The position numbers and the translations under genes are program-made. Shown here in pieces: positions 22,049 through 62,094 of a stretch of 64,000 nt of DNA. Source of the stretch: Natronosalvus halobius. Lineage in GTDB: Archaea > Halobacteriota > Halobacteria > Halobacteriales > Natrialbaceae. The DNA is taken from NCBI RefSeq assembly GCF_024138145.1, contig NZ_CP099997.1:1116001-1180000 (forward strand), written 5' to 3'. The first letter of the stretch is position 1. Every line of letters begins with the position of its first letter. Below the pieces are notes generated by a model that saw nothing but the letters and a program-made list of their open reading frames with translations, was not told the origin of the DNA and ran no database searches.

Positions 22049-23347
22049 CTATTCCGCTTCGAAGTCGATCGTGTCCTGAACCTCGATACCGCCACCCTGG
22101 TACCGCATGACGTCGTAGGCGACGCTCACCATGTCTCCATTGTCGTCGAAGTCGACGGGGGAGGAGGCGCCAACGTAGTTGATCTCCTCACCGTCGGCAA
22201 CTGCGGCGGCGGCGTCGGCGAGTTCGCTCGGCCCGTACTCGGTTCCTTCGGGGTTCGCAACCTCGGGAATGGCGTCACGGACCGCCGTGCCGTCGGCCTC
22301 GTCACCGCCCGCGGCGATCGTCGCGAGGGTGATGACCGCGGCCGCGTCGTAGGCCTGGGCGTTGAAGACTTCCGGAGCGGAGCCGAACTCCTCTTCGTAC
22401 TGGTCGGCGAAGAAGTCCGCTCCAGGACCGGCGGCACTCGGTGCGGTACCCCAGACGTCTTCCATTTCGTTCCCGACTTCGCCCGGTAGTTCCGAATCGA
22501 TGAGGCCGTCGGGGACGATGATGGAGCCGTCCCAGTCATCCGCGTAGTCGCTGTAGTAATCGCGGAAGAGCGTAATGCCGGACTGTGGGAAGCCGACGAC
22601 CATCAGCACGTCCGGCTCGTCGGCGAGGGCGTCACCGAGCTGTGAACTGTACGTGGACTGTTCGGCCTCGAACGAGACGCGGTTCGTCACCTCGCCGCCC
22701 TCCTCCTCGAACGCATTGACGTACGAATTTTCGAGTGCCTGCCCGTAGTCGTCGTTCAGATACAGGGTCGCAGTCGAAGTTCCCTCCAGGTCCTCCGAGA
22801 CGACCTGGGCCATGACGGGGCCCTGGAGTGCGTCACTCGGACACGTCCGGAAGATGAAGCCGTCGTCCTCGAGGTCCGTGACCGCCGGTGCGGTCGACGA
22901 GGGCGACATGCCGACGACCTGGTTCGGGATGAAGACCTGACGAGTCACCTGCAGGTTGACGTTCGAGGCGGCCGGGCCAACGACCGCGGGCATCCCGCTG
23001 TCGACGAGGTTCTGTGCCGACGACTGGCCGGCGGAGGGATCCGTTTCCGTGTCGCCCGTCTGGACGTCGAAGTCGAGGGAGCCACTGAGCTGGCGTTCGA
23101 CCAGCAACGCCCCGTCACGCATCGTCCCACCGAGACTGCCGAGGTCGCCCGTCTCGGGCATCAAGACCCCGTATCGAACGGTTCCATCGTAGTCGACTTC
23201 AGCGCCACCGTTGCCGTTGCCATTTCCATTGCCGTTGCCGTTCCCACCATTGCCGTCTCCCTGTCCGTCGAGACAGCCAGCAATGCCGAGTGCACCTGCT
23301 GCACCGATACCGGTTAGCACCTTTCGTCGTGGTAGCTTCTGTACCAT
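22049..23347 (-). CDS. livJ: Branched-chain amino acid ABC transporter substrate-binding lipoprotein LivJ
   Basis: A 432-residue extracellular binding protein of the Peripla_BP_6 (LivJ/AmiC) type. The N-terminus is a Tat lipoprotein signal: 'PRRKVLTGIGAAGALGIAGC' with the lipobox Cys25. A Gly/Asn linker built from GGN/GNGN units (about residues 30-50) tethers the domain. Then 'VRYGVLMPETGDLGSLGG' opens the two-lobed ligand domain; 'NDDYGQALENSYVNAFEEEG' and 'DVLMVVGFPQSG' are typical lobe motifs. It has its own promoter and is convergent with livHMGF. Ligand presumed Leu/Ile/Val or another amino acid or amide. Confidence 0.92.
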   Translation of the reverse strand: MVQKLPRRKVLTGIGAAGALGIAGCLDGQGDGNGGNGNGNGNGNGNGGAEVDYDGTVRYGVLMPETGDLGSLGGTMRDGALLVERQLSGSLDFDVQTGDTETDPSAGQSSAQNLVDSGMPAVVGPAASNVNLQVTRQVFIPNQVVGMSPSSTAPAVTDLEDDGFIFRTCPSDALQGPVMAQVVSEDLEGTSTATLYLNDDYGQALENSYVNAFEEEGGEVTNRVSFEAEQSTYSSQLGDALADEPDVLMVVGFPQSGITLFRDYYSDYADDWDGSIIVPDGLIDSELPGEVGNEMEDVWGTAPSAAGPGADFFADQYEEEFGSAPEVFNAQAYDAAAVITLATIAAGGDEADGTAVRDAIPEVANPEGTEYGPSELADAAAAVADGEEINYVGASSPVDFDDNGDMVSVAYDVMRYQGGGIEVQDTIDFEAE

Positions 23348-25948: not shown

Positions 25949-27790
25949 ATGTTCAGGAAGGTTCTGGTCGCGAACCGCGGCGAGATCGCGGTACGAGTCA
26001 TGCGGGCCTGTGAGGAATTGAACGTTGGGACCGTCGCCGTCTACTCCGACGCCGACAAACACGGTGGTCACGTCCGCTACGCCGACGAAGCCTACAACGT
26101 CGGCCCCGCTCGCGCGGCCGACTCCTACCTCGATCACGAGGCAGTCATCGAGGCCGCGAAAAAGGCCGATGCCGACGCAATCCACCCCGGCTACGGCTTC
26201 CTCGCCGAAAACGCCGAGTTCGCCGCCAAAGTCGAGGAAGTAGAGGGAATCACCTGGATCGGCCCCTCGAGCTCGGCCATGGAGAGCCTCGGCGAGAAGA
26301 CCAAGGCCCGAACGATCATGCACGAGGCCGACGTGCCCATCGTGCCCGGCACCACCGACCCCGTTACCGACCCTGACGAGGTCCGCGCCTTCGGCGACGA
26401 ACACGGCTACCCGATCGCGATCAAGGCCGAAGGTGGTGGCGGCGGCCGCGGCATGAAGGTCGTCGAGGACGAGAGCGAGGTCGACGACCAACTCGAGAGC
26501 GCCCAGCGTGAGGGCGAAGCCTACTTCGGCAACGACTCGGTCTACCTCGAGCGCTACCTCGAAAAGCCCCGCCACATCGAGGTCCAGATCATCGCCGACG
26601 AGCACGGCAACGTGCGTCACCTGGGCGAGCGCGACTGTTCACTCCAGCGCCGTCACCAGAAGGTCATCGAAGAAGGCCCATCGCCCGCGCTGTCGGACGA
26701 ACTGCGCGAACAGATCGGCGAGGCCGCTCGTCGCGGGGTCGCCGCCGCCGACTACACGAACGCCGGTACCGTCGAATTCCTCGTCGAGGAACAACTCGGG
26801 CGCGAGAGCGTCCTGGGGGCCGACGCGAACTTCTACTTCCTCGAGGTCAACACCCGCATCCAGGTCGAACACTGTGTGACCGAGGAGATCACCGGCCTCG
26901 ACATCGTCAAGCGCCAGATCCGGGTCGCCGCAGGCGAGGAACTCGACTTCGAGCAGGACGATGTCGAGATCGACGGCCACGCGATGGAGTTCCGTATCAA
27001 CGCCGAGAACGCAGCGAAGGACTTCCAACCGGCTTCTGGGGGGACGCTGACGACCTACAACCCACCAGGAGGAATCGGCGTCCGCCTGGACGACGCCCTC
27101 AGCCAGGGTGACGAACTCGTCACCGACTACGACTCGATGATCGCCAAACTCATCGTCTGGGGCGAAGACCGCGAGGAGTGTATCGAACGCTCGCTTCGCG
27201 CCCTGCGAGAATACGAGATCGAGGGCATCACGACCATCGTCCCGTTCCACCGCCTGATGCTGACCGACGAGATGTTCGTCGAGGGCCGACACACCACGAA
27301 GTACCTGGACAACGAACTCGAGCCGTCCAGGATCGAACAGGCCCAGGAACAGTGGGGGAGTGAAGAGTCCACTGGCACTGGCGCCAGCGCGGACGAGACG
27401 GTCGTCGAACGCGAGTTTACCGTCGAGGTGAACGGGAAACGCTTCGATGTCAACCTCGAGGATCGCAGCGGCGAAATTCCGCAGGCGGCCAGCAACGGGG
27501 GGTCGAGCACCGCCGGCGGACCGCCACAATCAGCCAGCAGTGACGACTCCAGCAGCGACGTCGAGATTCAGGGCGACGGCGAACGCGTCGACGCCGAGAT
27601 GCAGGGAACCATCCTCGCCGTCGAGGTCGCGGAGGGCGACGAGGTCGCCGCTGGTGACGTCGTCGTCGTCCTGGAAGCGATGAAGATGGAAAACGACATC
27701 GTCGCCTCGACGGGCGGAACCGTCTCGCAGGTAGCCGTCGAGGAAGGTCAGAGCGTCGACATGGGCGATACGCTGGTCGTCCTCGAGTAA
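25949..27790 (+). CDS. pccA: Biotin carboxylase / biotin carrier subunit PccA
   Basis: A 613-residue subunit that charges its own biotin with bicarbonate and ATP. The biotin carboxylase part (residues 1-450) has '[20 protein letters not shown]', the ATP-grasp Gly loop '[14 protein letters not shown]', '[17 protein letters not shown]', '[17 protein letters not shown]' and '[16 protein letters not shown]'. A Gly/Ser-rich linker leads to a biotinyl domain with the acceptor Lys579 in 'LEAMKMEND'. The biotin domain is fused, as in many archaeal acyl-CoA carboxylases. No biotin ligase gene is in the window. A long GGAAAC repeat begins 33 bases after the stop. Confidence 0.94.
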
Positions 27791-27822
27791 TTGGGAACGG
27801 TACTGACGTCGACATCGGCACC

Positions 27823-27942
27823 GGAAACGGAAACGGAAACGGAAACGGAAACGGAAACGGAAACGGAAACGGAAACGGAAACGGAAACGGAAACGGAAAC
27901 GGAAACGGAAACGGAAACGGAAACGGAAACGGAAACGGAAAC
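27823..27942. repeat. Twenty perfect GGAAAC hexamers
   Basis: A 120-bp microsatellite of 20 uninterrupted GGAAAC units, beginning 33 bases after the pccA stop. All six frames stay open through it (Glu-Thr, Gly-Asn, Lys-Arg and the complements), so ORF prediction here is unreliable; no gene is supported. The same hexamer encodes the Gly-Asn linkers of the binding proteins LivJ and DppA. Confidence 0.97.
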
Positions 27943-28010
27943 CGACATCGGCATCGATATCGGCACCGACACCGACACCGCTATCGCCACCGACATCGGA
28001 ACCAACTAAC

Positions 28011-28056
28011 TCGCACATCTCATCCACCCAGTGTCGCACATCTCATCCACCCAGTG
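28011..28056. repeat. Perfect 23-bp tandem duplication
   Basis: TCGCACATCTCATCCACCCA plus GTG at 28011-28033 is repeated identically at 28034-28056. It lies in the 406-base space between pccA and the next gene; apart from this and the hexamer array I see no feature there. Confidence 0.85.
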
Positions 28057-28196
28057 GCACACAAAACCAGCACGTACCGATCGGTCATCGTAGGCTCCGA
28101 CCTGGTCGAACCCGGTTGGACGACCTCGTATACCTCGGAAAACAGTCGTGGGATTTCCCGTCGAAAACCTCTCCAGGACGGAGTAGGGGAATAGGG

Positions 28197-28709
28197 CTAT
28201 TGTTTGAGCGAATCCGGGAGCAGCGGTTCGTACTCGTCGTGACGAATCGTACCGAGTACGTCACCGTTGAGTAGTTTGAAATGAGAATATAGCGCTTGTT
28301 CGTCGAGAATCGCCGGCATGACCGGCTGGAAGAAGCGTTCTTCGTACGACCCGGCGACGAGAATCGCGATTTTCGCGTCGGGGTCGAGAAGTTCCGTCAC
28401 CAGGAACGTGACGTTGTTCACCTCGTTCTGGTAGGCCTCGTACGTGGTGAAGGTTCCGCGCTCGAACGCGTCAGTGAACGCGTCGGCGTGGTTGTTCGGA
28501 ACGACGTAGATGAACCCGAACCGATCGTCGTCGCCCGAATCGCGCGAAATCACCGAGGTATGCACTGTCGGAATCGCGACGGCGTCCCATCCATCGTCGC
28601 GGCGTCCCTTGGCCATCGCTTGCATGTCCTCGTTCGTCTGCTTCCAGGCCTGTTTGGTCGCACCTGAGGTCCGACGCATGCCTAAGCTGTCATCCTCGGC
28701 CTTAGTCAT
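28197..28709 (-). CDS. Uncharacterised cytoplasmic protein
   Basis: A 170-residue soluble protein I do not recognise. Visible features are an N-terminal helical, Lys/Gln-rich segment ('SGATKQAWKQTNEDMQAMAK'), a mixed alpha/beta middle ('WDAVAIPTVHTSVISRD' and 'FGFIYVVPNNHADAFTDAF') and a C-terminal part with 'AILVAGSYEERFFQPVMPAI'. No signal, membrane segment or metal motif is seen. Normal codon use suggests a real gene. It stands alone, facing away from its neighbours. Confidence 0.6.
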   Translation of the reverse strand: MTKAEDDSLGMRRTSGATKQAWKQTNEDMQAMAKGRRDDGWDAVAIPTVHTSVISRDSGDDDRFGFIYVVPNNHADAFTDAFERGTFTTYEAYQNEVNNVTFLVTELLDPDAKIAILVAGSYEERFFQPVMPAILDEQALYSHFKLLNGDVLGTIRHDEYEPLLPDSLKQ

Positions 28710-34908: not shown

Positions 34909-36735
34909 TTACCTGTCTAGCGTAACGGTGTTGTACTGCTGGCGGTGGCCGCCGAGCGGGCCGGTCTCCGGGATGTCGACGTGATCGTACCAGAACCGCT
35001 CGTTGAGGTTGTGGAACAGCGGCAGGAGGATCATGTCGTCGCGAACGGCCTCTTCGATCTCGACGTGCGCTTCGGCACGGATGTCCTCGTCGTCGGGCGA
35101 CGGGTTGTTCTCGATCGTCTCCCAGGCGTCCGCGGCTTTCTGCATCTCTTCGGAATCTTCTTCCTGCCAGTCGAGGTAGTATCCGTTCGCCTCTCCGGGC
35201 ATATTATCCGTGTTCGTGTTCTCCGGATTGAACCCGAAGTGACCGTAGGCAGGGTCGACCCAGCTCCAGATCCAGCCGAGCGAGTAGAAGCCGAGGTCGC
35301 CGTCTTCACCGCGGCTGATGAGCGTCCCGAACTCTGCAGTTTCGATCGAGAGATCGATGCCGAGGCCAGCGACCTTGTCTCGAGTAAGGGTCGCGAACTC
35401 CTGGAACGCCTCGTTTTCGTACGTCGTGATCGTCAGCTCGAACGGATCGTCCTCCGTGTAGCCGGCCTCCTCGAGGACCTGTCGGGCCGAATCACGGTCG
35501 GTCTCGTTGGCGCTGTAGGGCCACTCGTCGACGTAGCTGTTGTACTCGTCGTTTCCGGTGGGCCACATTCCAGGCGGGGTGAAGCTGTACGCTTCCTCAC
35601 CGCGCTCTTTGAACACGTTCTCGATCAACTCCGAGTGATCGGTGACGTAGGCGATGGCCTGGCGAACCGGCTTTGGCGTCTGGGCGGCGTTGAACGCCAC
35701 GTAGAAGGTACTCATCTCGGCGACGCCGAGGTAGTTGACTTCTTCCTCGTTCTCGAGCGGACCGTAGGTACCGACCTGGCGTCCCTGGTCGTCCTCTTCT
35801 GCGTCGATGTTGTCCGGCTCGTAGAACGGCGTCGGGATGCCGAACACGTCTGCGTTCTGCTCGTTGACGTACGTCCAGATGGCGTCGTCGTCCTCGAGAA
35901 TCTGCCAGTGAACACCGTCGACGGAGGCGGCTTCGCCGTGGTAGTCGTCGAAGGCGGCAACGCGTGCTTCCGTGCCTGGCTCCCACAGGTCGTACTCGAA
36001 CGGACCGGTTCCCACCATCACGTCGGTGGAAATGTCTTCCTGCGTGTATTCGGCGTCGTCGTAGCCCTCGATGTCGTCGACGAGGCCTTCCGGCATGGCC
36101 GCGAAGGAGTCGTACGCGAGGATGTCGAGTGCTGCGGGCTCGGGGTCGGCAATGGTCACCTCGAGCGTTCGGTCGTCGACGGCTTCGACGGCGAGGGAGT
36201 CAGGGGTGACGACGCCCTCGTCGTCCACTTCGGCCTCGATGCCGAGCATGTCGGTGACGAAGTTCGCGCGCTGACTCTCCTCGGACTCGGCGAGGCGGCG
36301 CCACGCGTATTTGAAGTCGGCAGCCGTGAGTTCGCTTCCGTCGTGGTACTGCGCTTCCTTGATCGTGAAGGTGTACGTGAGGAGGTCGTCGGAAATTTCG
36401 ACTTCCTCGGCGAGCTGATTCTCGACCTCGGCTTCACCATTGGGGTAGTGAGTCAGGTTCTCGTACACCTGGCCGATAATGATCCCGGACGCGGTGTCAG
36501 TCGACTGGATGGGGTCGAGGGACGACACCGTCGAGTTGATCAGCCGAAGATCGTTGTCGGACGCACTGCTGTCCTCGCCGTTTCCGTTTCCGTTTCCGTT
36601 CCCGTTTCCAGATTCGTTACCATTCCCTTCACCGTTGCCATCTCCTCCGAAGCACCCTGCGACTGCGGCAGTCGCGGCACCTGCACCAGTTGCCTTCAGG
36701 AAGGTGCGCCGTGAATAGGCGTTTTCGTTCGACAT
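34909..36735 (-). CDS. dppA: Oligopeptide ABC transporter substrate-binding lipoprotein DppA
   Basis: A 608-residue extracellular binding protein of SBP family 5. The Tat lipoprotein signal is 'SRRTFLKATGAGAATAAVAGC' with Cys28. A Gly/Asn linker made by GGAAAC-type hexamers follows (about residues 33-50), then the type II fold: 'INSTVSSLDPIQSTDTASGI', 'YHDGSELTAADFKYAWRRL' and 'AQTPKPVRQAIAYVTDHSEL'. The end 'VDIPETGPLGGHRQQYNTV' is typical. It has its own TATA box. It should bind peptides and hand them to DppBCDF. Confidence 0.93.
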   Translation of the reverse strand: MSNENAYSRRTFLKATGAGAATAAVAGCFGGDGNGEGNGNESGNGNGNGNGNGEDSSASDNDLRLINSTVSSLDPIQSTDTASGIIIGQVYENLTHYPNGEAEVENQLAEEVEISDDLLTYTFTIKEAQYHDGSELTAADFKYAWRRLAESEESQRANFVTDMLGIEAEVDDEGVVTPDSLAVEAVDDRTLEVTIADPEPAALDILAYDSFAAMPEGLVDDIEGYDDAEYTQEDISTDVMVGTGPFEYDLWEPGTEARVAAFDDYHGEAASVDGVHWQILEDDDAIWTYVNEQNADVFGIPTPFYEPDNIDAEEDDQGRQVGTYGPLENEEEVNYLGVAEMSTFYVAFNAAQTPKPVRQAIAYVTDHSELIENVFKERGEEAYSFTPPGMWPTGNDEYNSYVDEWPYSANETDRDSARQVLEEAGYTEDDPFELTITTYENEAFQEFATLTRDKVAGLGIDLSIETAEFGTLISRGEDGDLGFYSLGWIWSWVDPAYGHFGFNPENTNTDNMPGEANGYYLDWQEEDSEEMQKAADAWETIENNPSPDDEDIRAEAHVEIEEAVRDDMILLPLFHNLNERFWYDHVDIPETGPLGGHRQQYNTVTLDR

Positions 36736-48634: not shown

Positions 48635-49639
48635 ATGACCGACGTCCTGTTTCTCACCAGTGAAGAGACGGTAGGTCTTGCCTCGCCCGCCGACTACGTC
48701 GATGCCGTTCGTGACGGGTACCGCCAGCGCGGCACCGGCGCGCCCGCCGAACCCAGAACCAAACTCTTTCGTGCCGATCCGGGTGGACTCCTGACGACCT
48801 ACTCCGCCGTACTTCCGGAAACCGGCGCGATGGGGGGTTACATGTACAGCGCCGGGTTCGGCTCGGGCGACGCCTGGTTCGTCACGCCCCTGTTCGACGC
48901 CGACAGCGGCGAACCAATCGCCCTGCTCGACGGTGCTCACATGAACCCATTCAAGACCGGCGCCGCCGGCGCAGTCGCTGTCGACGAACTCGCTCGCCAG
49001 GACGCCGATACCCTCGCCGTGATCGGCACCGGCCCGCAGGCGCGCGGACAGGTCCACACGACGGCTACCGTTCGCGATTTCGAGACGGTTCGCGTCTTCT
49101 CGCCGACCGAATCGAATCGCGAGGCGTTCGCCGCCGAGTTCGACGACGAACTCGCCGCCAGCGTCTCGGCCGTCGACTCGAGCGCCGCCGCCGTCGACGG
49201 TGCCGACGTCGTGATCACGGCGACGACGGCGAGTGACCCCGTCTTCGACGGCTCAGTCCTCGAGCACGGAACCCACGTCACCGCGATGGGGCAGTACCAC
49301 CCGAAGAAGCGCGAACTCGACGTGGAAACGATCGAACGGGCCACCTACGTTCCCGACCTTCGGGACCGGGCGACCTACGACGGGGGCTCGTTCCTCGCGG
49401 CGCTCGAGGCCGGTGCGATAGCCGAAGATCACGTCCAGGCCGAACTGGGCGAGATTGTGGCCGGCGAGGCGCCCGGACGAACGAGCGACGACGAGATCAC
49501 GGTGTTCGACAGCGGCGGGACCGGGATCGAAACCGTCGCGGCCGCGGCGATGTTGTACGAACGGGCGACGGAGGAGGGACTCGGCTCGACCATTTCGTTC
49601 GCACCCGCGAGCGAGGCACTGACGGGGCGGCGTTCCTGA
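48635..49639 (+). CDS. Ornithine cyclodeaminase / mu-crystallin family protein
   Basis: A 334-residue NAD(P)-dependent enzyme of the ornithine cyclodeaminase/alanine dehydrogenase (mu-crystallin) family. The Rossmann motif is 'LAVIGTGPQARGQVHTTATV' with 'RVFSPTESNREAFAAEF'. The substrate region has 'RTKLFRADPGGLLTTYSAVL', 'MNPFKTGAAGAVAVDELARQ' and 'ITATTASDPVFDG'. Possible reactions are ornithine to proline, reduction of imino acids, or alanine dehydrogenation; sequence reading cannot decide. The gene ends 113 bases before the pilin-like gene's stop, separated by a heptamer array. Confidence 0.88.
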   Translation: MTDVLFLTSEETVGLASPADYVDAVRDGYRQRGTGAPAEPRTKLFRADPGGLLTTYSAVLPETGAMGGYMYSAGFGSGDAWFVTPLFDADSGEPIALLDGAHMNPFKTGAAGAVAVDELARQDADTLAVIGTGPQARGQVHTTATVRDFETVRVFSPTESNREAFAAEFDDELAASVSAVDSSAAAVDGADVVITATTASDPVFDGSVLEHGTHVTAMGQYHPKKRELDVETIERATYVPDLRDRATYDGGSFLAALEAGAIAEDHVQAELGEIVAGEAPGRTSDDEITVFDSGGTGIETVAAAAMLYERATEEGLGSTISFAPASEALTGRRS

Positions 49640-49676: not shown

Positions 49677-49760
49677 CACCCGTCACTCGCCACTCGTCAC
49701 TCGCCACTCGCCACTCGTCACTCGCCACTCGTCACTCGCCACTCGCCACTCGTCACTCGC
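49677..49760. repeat. Heptamer microsatellite CACTCGY, 12 copies
   Basis: Eleven perfect CACTCGC/CACTCGT units at 49684-49760 preceded by a variant (CACCCGT) at 49677. C and T forms alternate in a pattern (C-T-C-C-T-C-T-C-C-T-C) that suggests higher-order duplication. The array runs into the stop codon and last codons of the minus-strand pilin-like gene (49753). Confidence 0.95.
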
Positions 49761-51285
49761 GCTCGACGGCAACTTCGTGGACGACGACGGTCAGGTGGTT
49801 CAGTTTCGGCGGTAAGTGCTCCGGCGGGATCGCGATCGTCGGCTCGACGGTCGAAAGCGACGGATCGTACGTCAACTTCGCGTTCTGGGCGATCGACATC
49901 GGGCCCGAGATGATCGATCCCGTGAAGTCGACGCTCCCCGTTCCAATGCAGACGTCGGCCCAGTCGGCGTCTGGCGAGCAGTCGGCGTTGTTCAGGTACT
50001 CGTCGACGAGTTCGTTCGTCCCCTCGGCCGGCTCGTCCCGTGGTGCGTAGATGGTTCCCGTGAACGTCCCCTGACCGATCGCGAACTTCATCTCCGAGGT
50101 TCCGTAGAGCTGAAAGTGCCGGGGATCGTCGGATTCGACGGTGACGCCGCCGCTACCGCCTCCAATAGCTACGTCGCCGGTCGTGTACACCCTCGCGACG
50201 TGTTCCGTTCCCGCACCGTCGACGACCTCGATCTTCGCGTTGTCGAGTCCGATGTTCCCATCGACGAGGATGGTTACGTCCCCCTCGCTCAGATCGATCT
50301 CGAAGCCGTCTCCCTTCGCGAGGAGCAACTCGTCCGCGTAGTAGGTCCCGTTCTCGAGGGTCGTCCCGTCGATAGAGCGGGCGTCCTCCGCCGACGTCTC
50401 GAACAGGTACGCGATGTCGTCGTCGAGCGGCCGAAGGTCGACCGCTTCGCCGCCCGTACAGTTGGCAGGTGCTTCACAGGTGATACTCACGTTTCCGGTC
50501 GCCGAGATCGAGCCGTTCACAGAGGGGTTCCCGCCGTTATCGAGTACGTCCCCAACGGCGGTGACCGCTCCGTCGTAGGACCCGTCGGGATTGGGCTGTC
50601 CGAGCAGGATGGTGACCGTCCTGTTCGCGTGATCGACCGTCACGTACTTGTCGCCGACCTGTCGCTCGTAGTGGGTCGCCCAGCCGGCGTAGTACGGGCT
50701 CTCGATCGTGATCGTGACGAACCGACCCGCGACGCTCGGGCTATCGCGGGTCGGCCGATCGCTCCGTACTTTCGAGAGGCGAATCCGGTCGTTCGATACC
50801 GATTCGACGCCCTCGAGTCGCGTGATCGGTAGTCGGAAGGCGTCCTGACGGTACTCGGCCTGTGGTGCGGAGACGAGTCTCGCCTGGGCACCCGTGGCGC
50901 GGAAGACGGCACCGCCCTCGTAGGCGACGACCGTATCGCCGTCACGATACTCGATCGCTCGCATCGGTTCGTCGATTATGGGGTCCTCGAGGCCGGACGC
51001 AGTCACCGTAATGTGGCCCGAATCCACGAGAGAAACCTGGCCGTTGGCGTCTGCCAGGCCGAGCGCGACCGACCGCGTGTCGTCGCTCGAGGCGGCGACC
51101 GTGTTCAGTTCCGAGCCGAGGTTGACGAACGACTGTTCGACGCGCTCATCCTGGAGCTGGTCCGAGGACGTCGTGAGCGCCCCGGTTCCGACGAGGACGA
51201 TGCCAATGCTGGCGACGGCGACCATGCCGATGATGATCGTCAGGGCGAGTACCGGCGTCAGCCCCCGGTCGGCGCGGTCGATCAT
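49753..51285 (-). CDS. Archaeal pilin-like surface protein
   Basis: A 510-residue protein with an N-terminal class III signal-like segment: a short charged start 'MIDRADRGLTPVLALTIIIG' and one long helix, as in haloarchaeal type IV pilin-like proteins cleaved by PibD-type peptidase. The rest is extracytoplasmic and beta-rich: 'VALGLADANGQVSLVDSGHI', repeats with 'VTILVDGNIGLDNAKIEVV', 'GDVAIGGGSGGVTVESDD' and 'GTFTGTIYAPRDEPAEGTNE'. Three Cys pairs may form disulfides. It is too long for a major pilin and is probably a minor or surface-attached protein. It stands alone. Confidence 0.75.
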   Translation of the reverse strand: MIDRADRGLTPVLALTIIIGMVAVASIGIVLVGTGALTTSSDQLQDERVEQSFVNLGSELNTVAASSDDTRSVALGLADANGQVSLVDSGHITVTASGLEDPIIDEPMRAIEYRDGDTVVAYEGGAVFRATGAQARLVSAPQAEYRQDAFRLPITRLEGVESVSNDRIRLSKVRSDRPTRDSPSVAGRFVTITIESPYYAGWATHYERQVGDKYVTVDHANRTVTILLGQPNPDGSYDGAVTAVGDVLDNGGNPSVNGSISATGNVSITCEAPANCTGGEAVDLRPLDDDIAYLFETSAEDARSIDGTTLENGTYYADELLLAKGDGFEIDLSEGDVTILVDGNIGLDNAKIEVVDGAGTEHVARVYTTGDVAIGGGSGGVTVESDDPRHFQLYGTSEMKFAIGQGTFTGTIYAPRDEPAEGTNELVDEYLNNADCSPDADWADVCIGTGSVDFTGSIISGPMSIAQNAKLTYDPSLSTVEPTIAIPPEHLPPKLNHLTVVVHEVAVERE

Positions 51286-56894: not shown

Positions 56895-59087
56895 ATGGCA
56901 CGCGACACTCCGGTCGACTCGAGTAGCGATCAGCTACCTGAACGTAACCAGGCCCAAACGGCCGATAGAATCCTCCATCGGCGTTCGTATCTCAAACTCG
57001 CCGGCACAACCGCCGGTCTCGTCGCCGGGACGGGAACGGCGGCGGCCGGCGCTGACATCGACGCTGACGTCAACATCGTAGATGCCGGTGCCGATAACTC
57101 CGGAAACACGCCGATCAACGCCGTTCTCGAATCCGTTCACGGCAATGGTACGACGATTTACTTCCCACCAGGAGAGTATCGTCTCGATTCCTTTCGGAAC
57201 GGAGCGAACGACTGGACGTGGTACGGCGAGGACGCGACGTTCGTCGTTCCATCCCACGTCACCGAAGGATACCTCCACCTGACGGGCAACGGCTGGACCA
57301 TCGATGGCATCGACGTCGATTTGTCCGCTGACGGCGCGGCTCCGGTCAACTTCCTCCACGGCGGCGACTGGACGTTCAGGAACGTCGAGTTCGTCGGGCG
57401 GATGAGCGACCCCTCGAGCCGCGCTAACTCGGAGCTCCTCTACCTGGACGCCCACCGCGGCACCCAGGGGCTCGTCGAAAACGTCCGTGCGATGGACGGC
57501 TCTGCGGCCGTCGACGAATCGTCAAACCGTGGGGGACTACAAATCGTCGGCTCTGAGGGTGACCTGACGCTGCGAAACGTGGCGGTCTCGGGCTTCGCCA
57601 ATAACTCGATGTACTTTCACAATATGCCTGGTCACCTGCTGATCGACAACTGCTACCTCGAGGACACGAACACGGGCGTCAGAATCGGCGGGAACACGAC
57701 GGTGCGGGATACCGTGTTCAACCAGTCGCAAGCTCCGCCAGCGAGGTGGTCCGGTGCGAGCGCGGCACGCGGTATCTGGATCAACTCGAATAGCTCGACT
57801 TCGGGCGACATCACCATCGAAGGCTGCGAATTTGTGATGGGCGATCCGAGGGGCGCCCACGCGATATATACGTCGAACTCCCACGAGGGAATCGAGATTC
57901 GTGATTGCGTGATCCGCCAGGATAGCGACTTCTACGCCGTTCAGCTCGACGAGGGCGGCTCGGGACGAACGATCATCGATAACGTCTCGATCACCGGCGA
58001 CTCCTCGAAGGCAGGCATCTACCTCAGTGGTCGGAGCGGCGCCCGACTGCGCAATCTCTGTCTCCAAAAGGCTGGAGACGGCGTCCGCGTTCGGAACTCG
58101 AGCGACGTTCGGATCGAGAACTCGACGATCAACGTCACCGGAACGAGCGTGAGCGGAAGCCCGTCCACAAGCGGCATCTCGAACAGCGGGACGTGTCCAG
58201 TGCCAGATGGCGACTGGGCACCCGAGGAGACGAGTGACGAAAATAGCGAGAACGACGACGAACGGGAAGAAGCGACGGATCCCGACGGAACCCCGATCCG
58301 TCTCGAGGGCGAAGGCGAGTACCAGATCGCCGTCAGCGGCGACATCCAACCGGCGCCTGAGATCGCTCAGTGGGTGACCGAAGGCGAACAGTACGGCGAC
58401 GGCCAGGTCGACTGGTACCTCACCGGCTCCTGGACCGAGTGGTACTTCACCGGCGAGGTCGAAGCATTCGAACTCGAGAACGTCGAGGAGATCAGTGTTT
58501 ACCTCGATGGAGAGGAGGTCGACCCGGATGCTCTCGGAGCGTCTAACGACGCCGAACCGGCGGAGAAGACTCTCCGACTCGAGGGCGAGTGCGACTACCT
58601 GATCGCCGTCAGCGGCGACATCCGCCCGGACGAGAAGATCGCTCAGTGGGTGACCGAGGGCGAACAGTACGGCGACGGCCAGGTCGACTGGTACCTCACC
58701 GGCTCCTGGACCGAGTGGCACTACACTGGCGAAATCGAGACGTTCGAGGTCGACTCGACCGACGACCTCCGGGTCTTCGTCGACGGCGAGACGGTTGACC
58801 CCAACAGTCTGGACACGTCGAGTCGGGCGGACGCGGAGTCCGTGTTGCGACTCGAGGGAACTACAGAATACTTCGTCGAAGTGAGCGGCGACATCCGCCC
58901 AGACGAGAAGATCGCTCAGTGGGTGACCGAGGGCGAGCAGTACGGCGATGGGCAGGTCGACTGGTATCTCACCGAATCCTGGACCCAGTGGTACTTCACT
59001 GGCGACATCGAAACGTTCGAAGTGAGCTCCACCGACGACCTTCGAATTTTCGTCGACGGGATCGAAGTGAACACGAACTCGCTGTAA
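56895..59087 (+). CDS. Tat-exported right-handed beta-helix protein with three C-terminal repeats
   Basis: A 730-residue secreted protein. The Tat signal ('HRRSYLKLAGTTAGLVAGTG') is preceded by a 30-residue polar stretch. Residues 60-430 form a pectate-lyase-like beta-helix with repeated strands ('NGWTIDGIDVDLSADGAAPV', 'GDLTLRNVAVSGFANNSMYF', 'GIEIRDCVIRQDSDFYAVQL', 'RIENSTINV'). After an acidic linker come three 85-residue repeats (about 469-555, 561-640, 652-730), each with 'AQWVTEGEQYGDGQVDWYLT'. The repeats look like a surface-attachment or sugar-binding module (inference). The beta-helix suggests a polysaccharide target. ATG 56895 is set by a TATA element 27-32 bases upstream. Confidence 0.82.
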   Translation: MARDTPVDSSSDQLPERNQAQTADRILHRRSYLKLAGTTAGLVAGTGTAAAGADIDADVNIVDAGADNSGNTPINAVLESVHGNGTTIYFPPGEYRLDSFRNGANDWTWYGEDATFVVPSHVTEGYLHLTGNGWTIDGIDVDLSADGAAPVNFLHGGDWTFRNVEFVGRMSDPSSRANSELLYLDAHRGTQGLVENVRAMDGSAAVDESSNRGGLQIVGSEGDLTLRNVAVSGFANNSMYFHNMPGHLLIDNCYLEDTNTGVRIGGNTTVRDTVFNQSQAPPARWSGASAARGIWINSNSSTSGDITIEGCEFVMGDPRGAHAIYTSNSHEGIEIRDCVIRQDSDFYAVQLDEGGSGRTIIDNVSITGDSSKAGIYLSGRSGARLRNLCLQKAGDGVRVRNSSDVRIENSTINVTGTSVSGSPSTSGISNSGTCPVPDGDWAPEETSDENSENDDEREEATDPDGTPIRLEGEGEYQIAVSGDIQPAPEIAQWVTEGEQYGDGQVDWYLTGSWTEWYFTGEVEAFELENVEEISVYLDGEEVDPDALGASNDAEPAEKTLRLEGECDYLIAVSGDIRPDEKIAQWVTEGEQYGDGQVDWYLTGSWTEWHYTGEIETFEVDSTDDLRVFVDGETVDPNSLDTSSRADAESVLRLEGTTEYFVEVSGDIRPDEKIAQWVTEGEQYGDGQVDWYLTESWTQWYFTGDIETFEVSSTDDLRIFVDGIEVNTNSL
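58299..59087 (+). repeat. Three coding repeats with near-identical DNA cores
   Basis: The three C-terminal repeats of the beta-helix protein begin at about 58299, 58570 and 58845. In each, a stretch of about 90 bases coding 'AQWVTEGEQYGDGQVDWYLT' and its surroundings is almost identical at DNA level, silent sites included, while the flanks have diverged. This points to recent duplication or gene conversion. Confidence 0.8.
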
Positions 59088-61949: not shown

Positions 61950-62030
61950 GTACCCACCCATGCACGGCGGACTCTTAATTCTTAGTCAGACAGTCCGGCG
62001 TTCGAGTGGGTGTCCGCCGACAAAATCGTT

Positions 62031-62094
62031 CGATCACTCGATCACTCGATCACTTGATCACTTGATCACTCGATCACCCGATCACTCGATCACT
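62031..62094. repeat. Octamer repeat (C/T)GATCACT, eight copies
   Basis: Eight tandem units, CGATCACT or TGATCACT with one CGATCACC, at 62031-62094. Each contains the palindrome TGATCA or the GATC site. It lies between the PRC-barrel start and the HD gene. Confidence 0.95.

Follow-up and report, generated by a model that had tools for sequence, protein, structure and literature searches.

The perfect GGAAAC array found between two converging genes of Natronosalvus halobius is very probably an ordinary, if long, hexanucleotide microsatellite, specific to this species and devoid of a function of its own, which would have grown in place by slippage. It was analysed within a window of 64,000 nucleotides, i.e. 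the whole stretch of contig NZ_CP099997.1 from position 1,116,001 to 1,180,000, and positions are given in window coordinates. The array matters little alone; its analysis corrects a tempting tie between a non-coding repeat and the linkers of lipoproteins.

A perfect array in a convergent spacer

The spacer and its two flanking genes comprise the following features.

25949..27790, plus strand: biotin carboxylase gene with a C-terminal biotin-lipoyl domain, named pccA in the preliminary description (Pfam)
27791..27821, no strand: left flank with a weak 6-bp periodicity (lag-6 identity 0.50 over 27791-27822)
27822..27942, no strand: perfect period-6 array, unit GGAAAC, 20 copies from 27823 (direct repeat inspection)
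27943..28010, no strand: right flank, a degenerate 6/12-bp-periodic tract, ACCGACATCGGC-like (TRF period 12, 72% matches)
28011..28063, no strand: 23-bp unit in 2.3 tandem copies, adjoining the period-6 region (TRF, 93% matches)
28197..28709, minus strand: DUF7529 gene, convergent, on the far side of the spacer (Pfam PF24373, E 1.5e-54)

The preliminary description placed 20 perfect copies of GGAAAC at 27823-27942, outside any gene, and both statements are confirmed. The coordinates are exact, the maximal period-6 run reported by TRF covering 27822-27942 (121 bp, 100% matches), and the array sits between the stop codon of the carboxylase gene (27788-27790) and the convergent gene end at 28197, within an intergenic spacer of 406 bp flanked by two converging gene 3' ends. 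Pfam assigns Biotin_carb_N, CPSase_L_D2, Biotin_carb_C, and Biotin_lipoyl domains to the carboxylase. Depending on the frame, GGAAAC reads Gly-Asn, Glu-Thr, or Lys-Arg and, through its composition, the array is free of stops in all six frames. Folding of the array strand was compared with 200 shuffles, 186 of which are at least as stable (z +1.27), and a DNA hairpin or other structure at this site was accordingly dropped.

Background expectation was derived from 20 even stretches of this genome, which add up to 400 kb and to ~11% of contig 1. In this sample, perfect period-6 runs extend to 36 bp at most, and no more than four are 24 bp or longer; 20 order-5 Markov sequences of 400 kb each return longest runs of 15-22 bp. 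The 121-bp array is far outside both the sample and the Markov expectation. It therefore displays what is required of a microsatellite, namely a unit of at most 6 bp repeated head to tail beyond chance.

The right flank (27943-28010) exhibits a lag-6 identity of 0.61, a value reached in the 400-kb sample by 35 out of 23,526 overlapping windows. We read this tract as the probably older, decaying part of a single period-6 region, the perfect core of which would be young. A DNA search with positions 27943-28196 over 125 family genomes, own included, reports similar low-complexity tracts in 32 of them; in the own genome, the matches are only the query itself and a Thr-Asp coding tract (81% over 63 bp). 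Among seven matches inspected, some lie inside long open frames and some between genes. A mobile-element origin was also considered and is without support in what was inspected, the period-6 tract and the 23-bp tandem duplication being the only features seen in the spacer.

Other repeats are present in the window. Eleven copies of the 7-mer CACTCGC (49684-49760) occupy the same type of setting, a spacer between convergent ORFs (48635-49639, plus strand, and 49753-51285, minus strand). A 273-bp unit repeated 2.6 times (58360-59059; TRF, 80% matches) is probably a coding repeat. Lastly, the 8-mer TCGATCAC is repeated about eight times, nearly perfectly, at 62030-62094 between divergently read ORFs, a minus-strand one with its 5' side at 61961 and a plus-strand one, HD-domain-like by eye, starting at 62094 or somewhat later. 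Its period, not divisible by three, and its likely promoter location make this last repeat a more promising candidate for expression switching than the GGAAAC array.

Distribution of GGAAAC arrays

The GGAAAC unit is special neither to this locus nor to the clade, but an intergenic location is unusual for a haloarchaeal array. GGAAAC arrays of at least 36 bp are found in 4 of the 125 family genomes, as are, likewise, arrays of at least 36 bp of the control unit ACCGAC (4/125). At a threshold of at least 48 bp, GGAAAC arrays are present in two of 391 genomes that sample a larger set of the class evenly. A scan of the genome collection with the same threshold, which may omit the window's own record, returns 57 stretches across many phyla, two of them haloarchaeal, with Myxococcales, Necropsobacter, Deefgea, Salinicola, Planctomycetaceae, and others as source groups. 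All four other haloarchaeal genomes with an array in the family and class scans have it within a long open frame, where it reads Gly-Asn in three cases and Glu-Thr in the fourth, two of the Gly-Asn tracts being preceded by a lipobox-like sequence; in a stretch from a Haloferacaceae MAG (L129), it closes an open frame of 203 codons, again as Gly-Asn. For this clade, these open-frame cases weaken the idea that such an array can arise anywhere. The present array is the longest among the Halobacteria examined, and the only clearly intergenic one.

The comparison with congeners covers eight genomes, one per species. The carboxylase orthologue ends with the residues DTLVVLE and the stop codon in all eight, own included, with protein identities of 87-98% among congeners, and the DNA of the gene is 93% identical to that of the nearest relative. 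No GGAAAC dodecamer is present within ~1.5 kb after the orthologous carboxylase gene in any of the seven other congeners, and the own genome is the only one of the eight to contain a GGAAAC array of at least 36 bp anywhere, one of the seven other assemblies being only 66% complete. Since it is missing after a conserved gene in seven congeners, the array is private to Natronosalvus halobius in this 8-genome sample, i.e. its presence is restricted to one lineage and no conserved orthologous array accompanies it. The spacer is too diverged to align reliably with that of the relatives: an alignment of the ancestral site was attempted and proved untrustworthy for this reason. The DUF7529 gene is located beside the carboxylase gene in six of the eight genomes, and its product, 43-49% identical at the protein level in the other genomes, diverges much more rapidly than the carboxylase.

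Gly-Asn linkers and the origin of the array

Two Gly-Asn linkers of binding proteins are encoded in the window.

23208..23262 (about), minus strand: Gly-Asn linker of a LivJ-like binding protein, without any GGAAAC unit (sequence reading, Pfam)
36580..36640 (about), minus strand: Gly-Asn linker of a family-5 solute-binding lipoprotein, DppA (sequence reading, Pfam)

GGAAAC had been proposed to build both linkers. This holds in part for DppA, the linker of which contains four GGAAAC units (one single and one run of three), and fails for LivJ, which uses GGCAAC, GGCAAT, GGAAAT, and GGGAAC. Counted genome-wide, as the preliminary description had suggested, at least three GGAAAC in a row occur at four sites, i.e. 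the array, DppA, C1:326618, which belongs to a second lipoprotein linker, and a tract at C1:1402921. Outside the array, the whole genome contains 15 Gly-Asn tracts of at least four units (only tracts of four or more were counted), and their 75 units, in a tally merged by hand, include 19 GGAAAC, 22 GGCAAC, and 13 GGGAAC. Linker DNA is codon-mixed, and the array is not. The DppA orthologue of congener G003 possesses one GGAAAC and eight GGTAAC units, that of congener G001 also uses GGTAAC, and the other orthologues shown are mixed. The supposition that coding linkers can lengthen by 6 bp is borne out by 6-bp length steps between species, in the DppA orthologues as well as in a Thr-Asp coding tract of another gene. 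The latter tract (ACCGAC unit; L185, G000:C1:1506315-1509377, positions ~1500-1600) exceeds its counterpart in congener G004 (L158) by 22 residues. Judged from these comparisons, the 6-bp expansion in coding linkers is real, with different loci and species amplifying different units, which fits local slippage and not the copying of one linker DNA.

It had been suggested that the array comes from duplicated linker DNA; in such a scenario, a Gly-Asn linker gene, e.g. dppA, would have provided the seed through duplication or gene conversion, and expansion would have followed. Although the DppA linker, with its run of three GGAAAC and one more unit, is only 8.6 kb away, this origin is very unlikely. 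In the search over the 125 family genomes, the right flank matched, in the own genome, only itself and a Thr-Asp coding tract, and no Gly-Asn linker; linker-type flanks (GGCAAC, GGTAAC) are missing around the array. GGAAAC accounts for just 19 of the 75 linker units and for none in LivJ, and the array, read in the frame of the upstream gene, gives Glu-Thr rather than Gly-Asn. The preliminary description had itself taken unrelated units in other copies of the linker as evidence against its proposal, and mixed or different units are largely what the linkers contain. Haloarchaeal genomes carry many 6-bp-periodic tracts, and the likeness of the array to Gly-Asn linkers is probably a convergence.

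In the slippage reading that we prefer, a GGAAAC proto-repeat within the older period-6 tract would have been the starting point. It would then have been amplified by slipped-strand replication, or by unequal exchange between copies of the polyploid chromosome, presumably after Natronosalvus halobius split off. The array would be tolerated because the spacer is located downstream of both genes, where neither a promoter nor a coding sequence is disturbed. Recent expansion by slippage, one of two explanations offered earlier for the perfect copies, agrees best with an array that is private among the eight congeneric genomes. The other one, active maintenance, is not needed: haloarchaeal mutation-accumulation lines, in the accessible text of PMC9997560, accumulate substitutions at 3.15e-10 to 3.99e-10 per site per generation, and from these rates we calculate one expected substitution in 120 bp per ~20-26 million generations. 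Gene search identifies NucS and several MutS-type genes in the genome, the stop counted inside the NucS match being the gene's own end. According to PMC8228993 (available passages), NucS does not correct indels, and hexamer slippage would thus be left to other repair. The locus would be a clear example of a young, perfect core within an older, decayed 6-bp tract, in an archaeon with NucS and MutS-type genes. It would be handy as a length marker for typing Natronosalvus halobius isolates, and slippage in a haloarchaeon could be measured on it as a natural substrate.

A variable-number contingency locus, tuning the carboxylase operon or the convergent gene, e.g. via 3'-end formation or antisense transcription, would suit a position in the 3' region of both genes and a 121-bp perfect tract that should be unstable in length. 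However, the array is upstream of neither gene, its strand folds no better than shuffles, and it is missing in all seven congeners despite the kept carboxylase gene, which makes such tuning highly improbable. Nor is it sited in a coding frame or a promoter as a phase-variable repeat would be, since it lies between convergent 3' ends and a 6-bp unit cannot shift the frame. That the tract codes for a short Glu-Thr-rich protein, or for a readthrough tail of the carboxylase, is extremely unlikely. After the TAA, 72 further codons are indeed open, the first being a TTG that immediately follows the stop, and their translation is LGTVLTSTSAP(ET)n...TDIGTN, but an open frame across the array is uninformative because all six frames are stop-free by composition. 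Moreover, the carboxylase stop is kept in 8/8 congeners with no similar tail after it elsewhere, the sole Pfam match is low-complexity (Trypan_PARP, 26.3 bits versus a cut-off of 100), and the coding Gly-Asn tracts of this genome mix synonymous codons, which the array does not. Over the eight congeners and Pfam, it belongs to no conserved or family-assigned reading frame. As for an assembly artefact affecting the copy number or the array itself, many database arrays of GGAAAC stop at contig ends, which indicates that assemblers stumble on them. The present array, however, lies far from the ends of a 3.5-Mb contig, one of three in the assembly, and is bordered left and right by non-repeat sequence; its copy number is given as assembled, and an artefact is exceedingly improbable.

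Intergenic arrays of the GGAAAC type might also be imagined as a nursery from which haloarchaeal proteins acquire new tails, acidic or flexible, a role that we regard as highly doubtful. In frame with the carboxylase stop, the array would read ~20 Glu-Thr repeats and then a Thr/Asp-rich end; read one base earlier than the Glu-Thr frame, GGAAAC yields Gly-Asn, as in the lipoprotein linkers. If the idea were true, the loss of one stop codon, or readthrough, would provide the carboxylase with a ready-made halophilic tail, since the array is stop-free.

Comparison with known repeat systems

Among the titles and abstracts listed on haloarchaeal tandem repeats, prokaryotic SSRs, GGAAAC, and lipoprotein linkers, none concerns the present array. 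In the accessible text of PMC2945643, the linker wording amounts to three glycine passages, none of them on Gly-Asn linkers. A tree-of-life survey reports archaeal genomes as low in short tandem repeats (PMC12699852, available passages).

The Gly-Asn linkers of haloarchaeal lipoproteins share GGAAAC with the array only in part (four units in DppA). Unlike the array, they mix synonymous codons, follow a lipobox, and change their unit between species. The available part of a survey of prokaryotic satellites describes the short-unit satellites of Halobacteria as mostly multiples of three that probably code for amino-acid repeats (PMC6749651). Within the limits of that text, the array resembles them in having a unit that is a multiple of three in a haloarchaeon; GGAAAC codes for Gly-Asn or Glu-Thr tracts in other haloarchaea, whereas the present copy is outside genes. 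The closest likeness is with the prokaryotic microsatellites of period 1-9 that arise from slipped-strand mispairing, with which the array shares a short, perfect, head-to-tail unit, a species-specific occurrence, and a non-coding location, and from which it differs by its length, 121 bp being unusually long for the Natronosalvus halobius genome.
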